Shown here piece after piece: positions 2,906 to 25,970 of a stretch of DNA of 26,206 nucleotides. A program made the translations under genes and the position numbers. Location of the stretch: the IMG/VR virus record IMGVR_UViG_3300047388_000255, positions 1 to 26,206 of that record; one strand, written 5' to 3'. The notes beneath the pieces were generated by a model that was not told the origin of the DNA, did no database searches, and saw only the letters and a program-made list of their open reading frames with translations. Within the stretch, counting starts at the first letter, position 1, and each line of letters opens with the position of its first letter. The stretch is from a virus.

Positions 2906-2915
2906 TGTTTTCTAA

Positions 2916-2970
2916 AGTGTTCGTTCATCAATTTTAAAAATTCAACTTGTAATTGAAAAATAAGAACACT
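2916..2970 (+). repeat. AG-N5 / N5-CT hairpin element, copy 1
   Basis: AGTGTTC (2916-2922) pairs GAACACT (2964-2970). It is preceded by TTTCTAA and followed by GATTTA, the conserved flanks of this family. The interior is A/T rich with a small TTCAA/TTGAA helix. It lies just upstream of a tRNA gene. Confidence 0.7.
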
Positions 2971-2983
2971 GATTTATTACAGT

Positions 2984-3059
2984 CGCGGCTGGGGAAGATG
3001 GTAATCCGCTGGTCTCATAAGCCAGAGAAACCAGGTTCGATTCCTGGAGTTCGCAACCA
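2984..3059 (+). tRNA. tRNA-Met(CAT), initiator-like
   Basis: Anticodon arm CTGGT-CTCATAA-GCCAG. The 3' end GCAACCA puts A at position 72 opposite C1, the unpaired C1-A72 feature of bacterial initiator tRNA. The anticodon stem lacks the full three G-C pairs, so initiator identity is likely but not certain. Confidence 0.7.
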
Positions 3060-5672: not shown

Positions 5673-6701
5673 ATGAAGGTATATCAAGGACTTGCACGTG
5701 ATCATTCCGGCTCAATGGCAAATATTGCCAAATATGCCGCTCGTGATTACAACGAGAACATCGAATCCATTAGAGAAGGAGCCGAAGCGCACAACATTGA
5801 TACTGTGGTATCTGTTGTGGAACTTGGCTACGGTGACACCGACAAGGTTCGCACAGTTATTGCTAATTCATCAGTCACGGCATTGAAGCCGATTGCCGAA
5901 AATAGCTACAGCGCACGTGGATGTGGTACTCCGTTGTTTGATGCAGTTGGTGAGCTGGTGGAGCAACTCCAAGCGGTTCCCGATGCAGACAATCCCACCG
6001 TTTCCTTTGTGGTGTTTACTACCACCGATGGCGGAGAGAACGCCAGCAGGAAGTATTCGGGCGCAACGATTGCGAAGCTGATCAAGAATCTGCAAATGAC
6101 CGATCGTTGGACGTTTGTGTTCCGTGTTCCGCAGGGCTATAAGCATCAGCTTACCCAATACGGTATTCCGGAAGGCAACATCCAAGAATGGGAACAATCG
6201 GAGCGCGGTTTGGCTGTGTCGACAGTCGCTACCAAGAGTGCTTTCCGTGGCTTTTATGCTGCGAAGGCTGCTGGTATCAACGCAACTGATAAGTTCTACG
6301 CGGACTTGAGCACAGTTTCCTTGAAGGAAGTGAAGGGCGCATTGGTTGACATCTCCAAGCAAGTTGATGTCTACGAAGTGGATGCTGCCAACGATGGCGC
6401 ACAAATCCGTGACTTCGTGAATGACCAAGGCATTACCTTTGTGAAGGGTTGTGCGTTCTACGAGCTGAAGAAGACTGAAACTGTTCAAGGCTACAAGCAA
6501 ATTGCCATTCGTGATAAGACGACTGGTGCTGTTTACAGTGGTTTCAATGCACGTGACTTGCTTGGTCTGCCGCATACCGGTGACGTGAAGCTTGCCCCGG
6601 GTAACCATGCCAACTACGAAATCTACGTGCAATCCACGTCGGTCAACCGTAAGTTGACAAAGGGGATGGGATTGATGATTTGGATTAACGTTCCGGCGTA
6701 A
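5673..6701 (+). CDS. von Willebrand factor A-domain protein
   Basis: 342 residues. The MIDAS metal-binding motif D-x-S-x-S is seen as DHSGSM (10-15), with the conserved Thr in GTPLFDA (about 86) and Asp in TTDGGE (about 119). The C-terminal half has no assignment. VWA proteins bind partners through a divalent cation; in phages the partner is unknown. AAAGG precedes the ATG. The gene is clearly less A/T rich, with more GC-ending codons, than nearly everything else here, and lies alone between tRNAs. This suggests high expression or a different origin. No signal peptide. Confidence 0.85.
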   Translation: MKVYQGLARDHSGSMANIAKYAARDYNENIESIREGAEAHNIDTVVSVVELGYGDTDKVRTVIANSSVTALKPIAENSYSARGCGTPLFDAVGELVEQLQAVPDADNPTVSFVVFTTTDGGENASRKYSGATIAKLIKNLQMTDRWTFVFRVPQGYKHQLTQYGIPEGNIQEWEQSERGLAVSTVATKSAFRGFYAAKAAGINATDKFYADLSTVSLKEVKGALVDISKQVDVYEVDAANDGAQIRDFVNDQGITFVKGCAFYELKKTETVQGYKQIAIRDKTTGAVYSGFNARDLLGLPHTGDVKLAPGNHANYEIYVQSTSVNRKLTKGMGLMIWINVPA

Positions 6702-8834: not shown

Positions 8835-9114
8835 TCCGATATAGCACAGCGGTAGTGCAGGTGACTGTTTTTAATGGCAGCTTTTATCTGAAAGGATAAT
8901 TGAAAAATTCGTCAAATTCGGTGAACCCTAAGTACAGAAATGTATATGGTAACGCCGAGCCAAGCTTCATATAGAAATATATGTTGAAGGTGTAGAGACT
9001 AGACGGCGAATATCTAAGTCGAAAGATATGATAATGGCATAGTCCACGCTACTATGAAAATAGTAGATTAGTGTAATCACTTGGTCAGGAGTTCGAATCT
9101 TCTTATCGGAGCCA
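8835..9114 (+). tRNA. tRNA-Asn(GTT) with group I intron
   Basis: Exon 1 is 8835-8868 and exon 2 is 9074-9114. Joined, they give a 75-base tRNA with acceptor TCCGATA/TATCGGA, discriminator G, CCA, and anticodon loop CTGTTAA (GTT). The intron interrupts the anticodon between its second and third bases; the run of T leaves the exact junction ambiguous by a few bases. Confidence 0.85.
8869..9073 (+). mobile_element. group I self-splicing intron
   Basis: About 205 bases with a recognisable catalytic core: a Q-like GGTAACGCCGAGCC, R-element GAGACTAGACGG and S-element GGCATAGTCC, so that P7 pairs GACTA with TAGTC. Exon 1 ends in T and the intron ends in G, as required for group I splicing. It carries no endonuclease ORF. 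Confidence 0.85.
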
Positions 9115-10554: not shown

Positions 10555-10637
10555 GGGCCGCTGACATATGCAAACTGGTACAGCTACTAGATTTAGACTC
10601 TAGGTTTTTCCGGGTTCGAATCCCGGGTGGCCCACCA
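10555..10637 (+). tRNA. tRNA-Leu(TAG)
   Basis: Acceptor GGGCCGC/GTGGCCC plus ACCA. Anticodon arm CTAGA-TTTAGAC-TCTAG. T-arm CCGGG-TTCGAAT-CCCGG. The variable loop is short for a bacterial tRNA-Leu. Confidence 0.8.
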
Positions 10638-10646
10638 AAGTTTTAA

Positions 10647-10760
10647 AGGATACTTGCAGCAATGTCTTAAACGACAGTTGGTTCAATTCCAACATTATGA
10701 TTTGCATAATACGCTCAATGGTTGAGCAATGGACTCATAATCCATAATTAACAGTATCCT
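10647..10760 (+). tRNA. circularly permuted tRNA with CAT anticodon
   Basis: Order of parts: T-arm GTTGG-TTCAATT-CCAAC (10677-10693), 3' acceptor strand ATTATG plus A (10694-10700), four bases, 5' acceptor strand CATAAT (10705-10710), D-arm GCTC-AATGGTT-GAGC (10713-10727), anticodon arm ATGGA-CTCATAA-TCCAT (10729-10745). The acceptor strands are exactly complementary over 6 bp but face inward. The outer ends pair as AGGATAC/GTATCCT. CCA is not encoded. Met or lysidine-type Ile are both possible. Confidence 0.75.
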
Positions 10761-10774
10761 GTTTTAGTTTCTAA

Positions 10775-10870
10775 AGGATGGGTTCAGCCATACAAATTCG
10801 CAAACTTTGCGGCCCGCCCAGTTGGGGCGTGGCAATAGGGTTCGATTCCCGGTCTATAGCCAAACATCCT
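10775..10870 (+). repeat. AG-N5 / N5-CT element enclosing a T-arm-like hairpin
   Basis: AGGATG (10775-10780) pairs CATCCT (10865-10870), with family flanks TTTCTAA and GATTTA. Inside lie a GC-rich hairpin (CGCCC/GGGCG) and GGG-TTCGATT-CCC extended by ATAG/CTAT and followed by GCCA. It looks like a tRNA top half without a visible anticodon arm. Confidence 0.5.
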
Positions 10871-10885
10871 GATTTATTTGACCAT

Positions 10886-11062
10886 AGGTTCGCTTCAGCA
10901 CTAAATTAATCTTTCTTCCAAAAAGAAGATCTAGGTTCGAATCCTAGCAGTAGAGTTGGTCACTACTGTCGTCTAATGGTCGGATATAAATGCGAACCTG
11001 TTTTGAATTCTGGTAAGACTATGTTAATATTACCCTTTAACTAGGGCATCACTTCCGAGCCT
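10886..11062 (+). tRNA. second circularly permuted tRNA
   Basis: T-arm CTAGG-TTCGAAT-CCTAG, then 3' acceptor CAGTAG plus A, eight bases, 5' acceptor CTACTG, a D-arm like GTCTAATGGTCGGA, and an anticodon arm CCTGT-TTTGAAT-TCTGG. By position the anticodon is TGA, but two stem mismatches make the identity unsure. The outer ends pair as AGGTTCG (10886-10892) with CGAGCCT (11056-11062), followed by GA as in the repeat family. Extra hairpins flank both halves. Confidence 0.65.
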
Positions 11063-11180: not shown

Positions 11181-11287
11181 GGTCGTATAGCTCAGTTGGT
11201 AGAGCGTCCGGGTTCTTATATACAAAGGTCGACTATATTTGTATATATCCTTATAGGAAGGTCGTGGGTTCGAGTCCCTCAGCGCCA
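11181..11287 (+). tRNA. tRNA with inserted hairpin, isotype unclear
   Basis: A canonical D-arm (TAGCTCAGTTGGTAGAGC) and T-arm (TGGG-TTCGAGT-CCC) are present. The anticodon region holds a perfect 10-bp insert hairpin (TATATACAAA with TTTGTATATA). The left side GGGTTCTTA suggests Arg(TCT) and the right side CTTATAG suggests Ile(TAT). The acceptor pairs poorly and CCA is missing, so this may be a decayed gene or one with a small intron. Confidence 0.45.
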
Positions 11288-12523: not shown

Positions 12524-12531
12524 AAATTTAA

Positions 12532-12585
12532 AGAATGCGTTCAGCAATTTAAAAATCAAAATTGAAAATTGAAAATAAGCATTCT
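12532..12585 (+). repeat. AG-N5 / N5-CT hairpin element, copy
   Basis: AGAATGC (12532-12538) pairs GCATTCT (12579-12585). TTTAA precedes and GATAT follows; TTCAGCAA follows the left arm. Directly upstream of a tRNA-like gene. Confidence 0.7.
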
Positions 12586-12595
12586 GATATATTTA

Positions 12596-12763: not shown

Positions 12764-12771
12764 GTTTCTAA

Positions 12772-12803
12772 AGGGTACAGTCCACAAATCCAGAAGGTAT
12801 CCT
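12772..12803 (+). repeat. AG-N5 / N5-CT hairpin element, shortest copy
   Basis: AGGGTAC (12772) pairs GTATCCT (12797). TTTCTAA precedes and GATTA follows. The interior is only 18 bases, showing that just the arms and flanks are constant. Confidence 0.65.
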
Positions 12804-12833
12804 GATTATTTTATCGCGTTGTGGCAGAGTTGA

Positions 12834-12907
12834 GGTCGGTTAGGTAAGTGGTATACTATTAGTTTCATACGCTGATTTCGCAAGTTCGATTCTTGCACCG
12901 ACTACCA
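12834..12907 (+). tRNA. tRNA with CAT anticodon (Met or Ile2)
   Basis: Acceptor GGTCGGT/ACCGACT plus ACCA. Anticodon arm TTAGT-TTCATAC-GCTGA. Elongator Met and lysidine-modified Ile cannot be told apart here. Confidence 0.8.
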
Positions 12908-14338: not shown

Positions 14339-14348
14339 AAATTTCTAA

Positions 14349-14399
14349 AGAGTGTATTCAGCATACAAAATCAATTTGAAAACTTGAAAAACACACTCT
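14349..14399 (+). repeat. AG-N5 / N5-CT hairpin element, copy
   Basis: AGAGTGT (14349) pairs ACACTCT (14393). TTTCTAA precedes; ATTCAGCA follows the left arm and GACTA the right arm. It lies in the leader region of the next CDS. Confidence 0.7.
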
Positions 14400-14419
14400 G
14401 ACTATATAAAGGAAATGAT

Positions 14420-14797
14420 ATGTCACACTATATCGCAATTATTACAAGCAAGGATTACTATTCGGGATATGAGCACGATGAACGCGACATTCTCATTACA
14501 AGTATTACTGATTGGTATGAAGTTACTGATGACGAATACAAGGCACTTCGTGCAGCTCAATCGCGCCTTGGATACATGATACTTGAGCGCCCGACAGACA
14601 TGAAGGTATTTGTTGCTAAGACTGTTGCAGATTATCTTGCTTATGCTAAGGCAGAAGAGAAGAGAATGGCAGCAGAGAAGGAAGCAAGAGAGAATGCCGC
14701 AATTGAACGTAAGATCAAAAAGGAACTTAAAGATAAGGCATCTAAGCTTAAGATGTTTGAAAAATTAAAGGCCGAACTTGGCCAGGAAGCATCCTAA
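14420..14797 (+). CDS. hypothetical protein with C-terminal coiled coil
   Basis: 125 residues, with AAAGGA before the ATG. The N-terminal 75 residues (MSHYIAIITSKDYYSGYEHDE...) form a mixed fold; residues about 75-120 are a Lys/Glu/Ala-rich helix, likely coiled coil. Less A/T rich than the endonuclease genes. No family recognised and no membrane segment or signal. Confidence 0.7.
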   Translation: MSHYIAIITSKDYYSGYEHDERDILITSITDWYEVTDDEYKALRAAQSRLGYMILERPTDMKVFVAKTVADYLAYAKAEEKRMAAEKEARENAAIERKIKKELKDKASKLKMFEKLKAELGQEAS

Positions 14798-15392: not shown

Positions 15393-15401
15393 AATTTTTA
15401 A

Positions 15402-15460
15402 AGAATCCATTCCGCAACTCAAATGAAATTCAACTTGTAATTGAAAATAAAACGGATTCT
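15402..15460 (+). repeat. AG-N5 / N5-CT hairpin element, copy
   Basis: AGAATCC (15402) pairs GGATTCT (15454). The interior shares TTCAACTTGTAATTGAAAA with copy 1 at 2916. Just upstream of tRNA-Gln. Confidence 0.7.
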
Positions 15461-15471
15461 GTTTATACAAT

Positions 15472-25550: not shown

Positions 25551-25703
25551 GTATAATATATTAGCATTGTTGGTTACGAAAGGGGAATGTAAGGGTCCCG
25601 TATCGCAAGAGTGAAAGCCTCCTAGACCCGGGAACACCAACATCATTGTTGTACGAAGCTGAAGGAAAGCTTCTGATAAAGAATTCTGCTATTCAGTTAG
25701 CAA
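25551..25703 (+). other. structured leader region of permuted tmRNA
   Basis: TGTTGGT (25568) pairs ACCAACA (25636) around GGGTC/GACCC, and GAAGCT/AGCTTC follows. This probably forms pseudoknot or helix parts of the tmRNA acceptor-side transcript. The 5' boundary is unknown. Confidence 0.45.
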
Positions 25704-25970
25704 ATCTGTAATAAAAGGCAGGCAAGACTCGGCTATCGTAGGCCGACATCTCCACCAATTTTCCGTGCCGAACACGGGGGTGAAAGGATTCGATTGCGTG
25801 AGTAATACATTGCAGATGGAATCGTCAGGCGATCGACGCAAATGAAGCAAAAAACGTTAAATGCAAACGACAATATGTATTTCGAGGAACTTGCGCTAGC
25901 CGCGTAAGCTCGATGGGGCAGGAAATGCCTTATTATCCAAATAACCAATGGGGCTTCGGCCCCATTTCTT
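25704..25970 (+). ncRNA. ssrA: circularly permuted (two-piece) tmRNA
   Basis: The 3' acceptor piece precedes the coding piece. CATCTCC-ACCA (25747-25757) pairs GGGGGTG (25776-25782), which begins the conserved GGGGGTGAAAGGATTCGA. Helix P2 forms between ATCTGTAAT (25704) and ATTGCAGAT (25809). The tag frame 25863-25907 encodes ANDNMYFEELALAA then TAA, ending in the ClpXP-type ALAA signal. The 18 bases between the pieces would be removed. It rescues stalled ribosomes; an AND-N start is typical of alphaproteobacterial tags, whose tmRNA genes are also permuted. Confidence 0.9.
25947..25970 (+). terminator. terminator at tmRNA end
   Basis: ATGGGGC-ttcg-GCCCCAT followed by TTCTT. The hairpin is strong; the T run is short. 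Confidence 0.7.

Follow-up and report, generated by a model that had tools for sequence, protein, structure and literature searches.

A phage RNA with permuted tRNA-like arms, probably a Y RNA-like tRNA mimic close in design to bacterial YrlA

Composition of the locus

In the window (the whole 26,206-nt stretch of viral DNA analysed here), positions 10647-10760 hold a T-arm, a 3' acceptor strand, a 5' acceptor strand, a D-arm and a CAT arm, all enclosed by an outer helix. The MFE fold of 10640-10770 consists of exactly this outer helix, a 4-bp hairpin, the T-arm, an acceptor hairpin, the D-arm and the CAT anticodon-like arm; its stability corresponds to z = -3.7 relative to shuffles, of which 1/200 was equally stable. 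The arms lie where a first-pass annotation had placed them, and all are in the MFE fold; the four bases it counted between the acceptor strands are actually the five of the loop ATTTG. The parts of the RNA are as follows:

10647 to 10654, plus strand: outer (Y-type) stem, 5' strand AGGATACT, pairing with 10753-10760 (8 bp)
10655 to 10662, plus strand: conserved internal-loop segment TGCAGCAA, invariant in 12/12 Met-type sequences
10663 to 10676, plus strand: small hairpin TGTC-TTAAAC-GACA (MFE fold; variable form in orthologues)
10677 to 10693, plus strand: T-arm GTTGG-TTCAATT-CCAAC (MFE fold, covariation)
10694 to 10710, plus strand: closed acceptor hairpin ATTATG-ATTTG-CATAAT, the 3' strand (10694-10699) upstream of the 5' strand (10705-10710) with which it pairs (covariation)
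10713 to 10727, plus strand: D-arm GCTC-AATGGTT-GAGC (both-side changes in 3/4 pairs)
10729 to 10745, plus strand: anticodon-like hairpin ATGGA-CTCATAA-TCCAT, with CAT at 10736-10738 (stem covaries, 4/5 pairs)
10753 to 10760, plus strand: outer stem, 3' strand AGTATCCT (MFE fold, covariation)

This RNA was reported neither by ARAGORN nor by Rfam at the gathering cut-off, and manA/wcaG and other phage RNAs of Rfam gave no match. A search of INPHARED for DNA similarity to the region returned nothing near, and the element searched alone as DNA matched only the D and anticodon arms of tRNA-Met.

The outer helix is part of an element with about eight copies in the window, most of which have no tRNA-like insert. 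Its layout is TAAAG - stem - TTCAGCA ... stem' - CTG, with stem sequences that differ from copy to copy, and TGCAGCAA is the counterpart of the TTCAGCA of the other copies. In a pattern-restricted scan, the element was found on one strand only, both in the window and in its relative. Larger inserts are present three times (10647-10760, 10771-10868 and 10887-10998). The remaining features of this kind are:

2913 to 2971, plus strand: empty outer element
10771 to 10868, plus strand: third element, stem AGGATG/CATCCT with GTTCAGC; counterpart conserved in a relative (L002:5281-5390)
10879 to 10884, plus strand: TGACCA, the upstream half of the second RNA's pseudoknot, complementing TGGTCA of the acceptor loop; covaries in relatives
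10887 to 10998, plus strand: second permuted tRNA-like RNA, outer stem GGTTCGC/GCGAACC (16-phage alignment; 131.9 bits with model R1, whose training set included the window)
12529 to 12586, plus strand: empty outer element, stem AGAATGC/GCATTCT with TTCAGCA
12770 to 12804, plus strand: outer element, short version
14346 to 14400, plus strand: empty outer element preceding the ORF at 14420
15399 to 15461, plus strand: empty outer element

The second RNA is made of TTCAGCA, an anticodon-like arm (loop CTTCCAA), a T-arm, an acceptor hairpin (CAGTAG/CTACTG) and a D-arm, and it too (10879-10999) was left unreported by ARAGORN and by Rfam at gathering. Its identification as a Glu or Gly tRNA was considered and dropped, as the triplet varies (TCC, TGA, GGA and others). 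The insert of 10771-10868, like that of L002:5281-5390, has D-arm- and T-arm-like hairpins without an anticodon arm.

Elsewhere in the window, a tRNA gene at 8835-9114 (Thr, TGT by ARAGORN -i) is split by a group I intron at 8857-9066, and in a tRNA-like sequence at 11182-11287 the acceptor stem is poor and the anticodon region is interrupted by a strong hairpin. A release-factor-like ORF at 25011-25550 matches only positions 161-335 of a 355-residue profile and is possibly truncated or frameshifted.

Conservation of the permuted order

A pattern scan of viral contigs gave 77 loci, about 50 of which we judged by reading to be genuine members, and a second scan recovered orthologues of the RNA at 10647-10760 (the pattern for such Met-type permuted tRNAs returned mostly ordinary tandem tRNAs). 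The search for homologues that keep the permuted order, proposed in the first-pass annotation, thus had a positive outcome: the order is kept in 11 distinct orthologues, hereafter the Met type. Across the 12 sequences of this type, window included, both-side changes affect 6/7 of the acceptor pairs counted, and there are 52 both-side-changed cells vs 16.0 in shuffles (0/500). The outer stem is 100% paired in the 12 orthologues, with both-side changes in 2/7 pairs counted. A covariance model built from the 11 orthologues, with the window left out of training (R2), matches 10638-10767 with 104.3 bits (E=2e-21). When R2 is used as a genome-wide detector, ordinary tandem tRNAs produce false positives of up to 41 bits, so we regard its cross-matches of 30-50 bits as supportive only and lower scores as no proof.

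The second type, represented by 16 members, shows the same pattern. All of its acceptor pairs (6/6) have both-side changes, with 94.6% of cells paired, and its whole structure has 84 both-side-changed cells, where slid controls give 8-20 and shuffles 29.4 (0/500). Across both types, 99-100% of the outer stem is paired, and it includes pairs with both-side changes. The comparison of orthologues, with its covariation, excludes chance as the source of the structure at 10647-10760. Judged by sequence comparison, the covariation of both types and the R2 match at 104.3 bits indicate that what is conserved here is an RNA with its arms in permuted order.

Tandem duplication can give rise to permuted genes, and odd and degenerate tRNAs fill this region of the window. 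A decayed pair of tandem tRNA genes might on these grounds have left a T-arm and acceptor strand beside an acceptor strand and D-arm by accident, but the 11 orthologues, in which the permuted helix covaries and the outer motif is invariant, make such an origin exceedingly improbable.

The 136-kb IMG/VR contig L002/G001, a relative of the window (89% identity in the protein of 5673-6701), retains the second RNA (window 10887-10998) with compensatory changes and has another permuted module at about 87625-87745 on the minus strand. A further orthologue is carried by Synechococcus phage BUCT-ZZ01, and Felixounavirus Alf5 also has a relative. The RNAs at 10647-10760 and 10879-10999 most likely belong to a family of small RNAs that is widespread in phages, and our search of the non-subscription literature found no description of this family or of its pseudoknot. 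On the reverse strand of ON615601 (about 128465-128620), a permuted T-arm/acceptor/D-arm module is nested in the variable arm of a tRNA whose order is otherwise normal.

Relation to tRNA genes and to tmRNA

The first-pass annotation had read the locus as a permuted tRNA gene whose product could be a two-piece tRNA. The topology is indeed that of circularly permuted tRNA arms, in conserved order and covarying, and the 3' half of the cloverleaf is encoded upstream of the 5' half, as in the circularly permuted tRNA genes of algae and archaea. In those organisms the product is a functional tRNA, whereas the phage RNA has a capped acceptor and an anticodon that is not conserved. If this were a true circularly permuted gene, RNase P and the 3' processing enzyme would cut between the acceptor strands, CCA would be added, and the outer helix would hold together a two-piece (or later ligated) tRNA-Met. 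All the tRNA arms are present, with U33 and purines after the anticodon and the T- and D-loop consensus retained, and ARAGORN under relaxed settings calls a tRNA-Met on the rearranged halves with a trimmed variable loop, although the rearranged sequence is not called at the normal threshold.

The acceptor end fits such processing poorly. In the Met type, to which the window belongs, the acceptor strands are linked by loops of 3-5 nt without CCA; elsewhere they are capped, by a UUCG tetraloop (L085, L133), by GAAA (L092) or, in other relatives, by a loop that can pair with the sequence immediately 5' of the outer stem, giving a pseudoknot (pairings GACCA/TGGTC, TACCTA/TAGGTA, ATCCCA/TGGGAT and ACCCT/AGGGT). 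In an alignment-free test on 16 members (with the loop misread in two), this pseudoknot had a mean of 5.0 Watson-Crick pairs vs 3.4 with shuffled upstream sequence (0/2000); in the MAFFT alignment it is only 44% paired, because its spacing varies. A few relatives (L062, L223) encode CCA after the 3' acceptor strand.

Nor do the orthologues have a consistent decoding identity (anticodon, 7-nt loop). CAT is found only in the window, L227 and L256, the others having CAA, GAA, AAA or TGA, and in some orthologues the anticodon-like loop has 5 or 6 nt instead of 7. In addition, the same outer stem also takes non-tRNA inserts or occurs without any tRNA module, and the window already has ordinary CAT tRNAs (12834-12907 and 2984-3059). 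These features, together with the capped acceptors, speak against an aminoacylatable two-piece tRNA, which we consider unlikely at 10647-10760. A true circularly permuted tRNA gene is quite improbable, even given the encoded CCA of a few relatives and the CAT kept in L227 and L256. There is a slim chance that some members, above all the CCA-encoding L062 and L223, are processed into working tRNAs. Circularly permuted tRNA genes would then be functional in phages, and a single RNA could double as Y RNA and precursor of a tRNA.

Permuted (two-piece) tmRNA (RF04321) resembles the phage RNA in its permuted acceptor domain. The RNA at 10647-10760 differs from it by having no tag-coding part, and Rfam gave no RF04321 match at 10637-10767. 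A permuted tmRNA is present at 25696-25907 of the window (RF04321, 90 bits), and G001 has one too (ARAGORN).

A Ro60-like protein and the comparison with YrlA

Several elements are followed by a gene for phrog_850, an 'RNA-binding protein' with the Pfam domains DUF2828 and DUF7788 (DUF2828 + VWA). When a structure model built from 13 homologues (pLDDT 76.7) was compared with the PDB using Foldseek, the top 10 matches were all TROVE/Ro60 (E 1e-10 to 2e-5, TM 0.4-0.6), led by TROVE 9kop, Thermus phage Ro60 9l5y, Rsr 2nvo and Ro60 1yvr. The protein is predicted to combine a TROVE HEAT-repeat ring with a VWA fold, as a relative of Ro60, although a PF05731 search found no TROVE. By predicted fold, it is related to the mycobacteriophage 'Ro-like RNA binding protein', to the Ro60 of Thermus phage phiLo (9l5y) and to the ROT/TROVE proteins of jumbo phages, for which a role as RNA repair platform, with a tRNA-like partner, is described (PMC7824862).

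phrog_850 is present in 12/12 and 9/10 of the IMG/VR carrier records of at least 100 kb (21/22 in total) vs 0/7 large tRNA-rich records with tandem Met tRNAs, picked regardless of phrog_850 (Fisher p=5e-6, a value that ignores shared ancestry, the clades not being independent). Among phage records overall, 681/50,697 have Ro60-like proteins. Some elements lie near the phrog_850 gene (G001, G004, G006 and others), and most of the copies in tRNA arrays lie far from it. The window, a 26-kb fragment, has no phrog_850 gene, either because the fragment misses it or because the phage is without it. Cr30, a relative by the protein of 5673-6701, has neither phrog_850 nor the RNA. That protein is of VWA type (phrog_26613), has a strongly conserved C-terminal domain (QSTSVNRK) and could possibly be a second partner; in BUCT-ZZ01 its homologue adjoins phrog_850.

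The positions of the copies also bear on another explanation, namely that the element acts in cis in tRNA and gene operons (as a processing site, antiterminator or leader regulator) and has a loop that tolerates tRNA-like inserts. Copies are found between tRNA genes, in ORF leaders (14346-14400 before 14420) and upstream of phrog_850 in G001 and G004; in the pattern-restricted scan of the window and its relative, they were on the coding strand only. Yet a cis-acting element has no need of a covarying, capped tRNA-like module or of co-occurrence with a Ro60-like protein, and we think this account unlikely.

The closest counterpart is YrlA (RF02553; Salmonella rsr-yrlBA). In YrlA RNAs, the stem formed by both ends tethers the Ro60-like protein Rsr, and the tRNA-like domain, which resembles D, T and acceptor arms, is modified by DusA and TruB (PMC8394870); YrlA is also present in several phages (PMC7765460). 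The Rfam consensus of YrlA runs stem - T-arm - acceptor hairpin - D-arm - stem, the same order as at 10647-10760. Like YrlA, the phage RNAs pair their two ends into a stem, have a T-arm, a closed acceptor without free CCA (L062 and L223, which encode CCA, are exceptions) and a D-arm in permuted order; in large carrier records, though not in the window itself, they also occur with a predicted Ro60-family protein. Unlike YrlA, they have a full anticodon-like hairpin, many copies per phage within tRNA arrays and, in one subtype, a pseudoknotted acceptor loop. Their outer stem differs in sequence (TTCAGCA), and its departure from the YrlA consensus is a counterpoint to the Y RNA reading. They also score below the Rfam cut-off: the gathering score of RF02553 (69 bits) is never reached, the best relatives have 35.8-40.3 bits, and the window RNA has no real match. 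We therefore do not file the phage RNA as YrlA; what we claim is a YrlA-like construction and, probably, a YrlA-like mode of action.

Individual relatives come closer. The module of L002/G001 at about 87625-87745 (minus) matches RF02553 with 35.8 bits (E=2e-7). In Mycobacterium phage Clautastrophe, an RNA directly 3' of the annotated 'Ro-like RNA binding protein' gene matches YrlA from end to end (39.3 bits) and, at the same place, R2 (49.7 bits), a supportive bridge between YrlA and the R2 family. In Citrobacter phage Ci1, the annotated 'tRNA-Pseudo-AAC' (L276:3512-3625) follows the phrog_850 gene at a short distance. Its arms are in the normal tRNA order, with a Y-type stem (CAAACT-GATA-AGTTTG), itself followed by TATTCAGCA, in place of the anticodon arm. 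It seems to be the reciprocal permutant: one RNA design would then occur in two forms, opened at opposite ends, in keeping with a tRNA mimic that has the Y stem as its anticodon side. Upstream of phrog_850 in L133 and L146, the tRNA-like element comes after a second one that is not tRNA-like (stem GATTAG/CTAATC), a pair that recalls yrlB-yrlA of Salmonella.

Since the layout matches YrlA Y RNAs, the acceptor is capped and the anticodon is not fixed, we favour a mimic over a two-piece tRNA: the RNA at 10647-10760 is, with good probability, a phage Y RNA-like tRNA mimic, closest in design to bacterial YrlA. In the mechanism that we infer, the conserved internal segment (TGCAGCA/TTCAGCA), which lies opposite an A-rich strand in the stem of the paired 5' and 3' ends, would serve as the grip for the Ro60-like phrog_850. 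The loop side would be the tRNA mimic, in which a T-arm, an acceptor helix with a short closing loop, a D-arm and an anticodon-like hairpin follow one another in an order that amounts to a circularly permuted tRNA. To tRNA-handling factors or nucleases, this side may offer the elbow and acceptor of a tRNA and so tether them to the Ro60 ring, where RNA would be quality-checked or repaired in the course of infection.

Sequences of permuted tRNA shape in phages are, on this evidence, not necessarily tRNA genes. Ro60-like proteins are common in phages and have had no clear role so far, and we found no RNA partner family of this design described for phage Ro60/TROVE in the searchable, non-subscription literature. 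A covarying family of tRNA-imitating RNAs that travels with these proteins is a concrete candidate partner, and it suggests that phages run a Ro60-Y RNA system of their own, perhaps against host defences that cut tRNAs.
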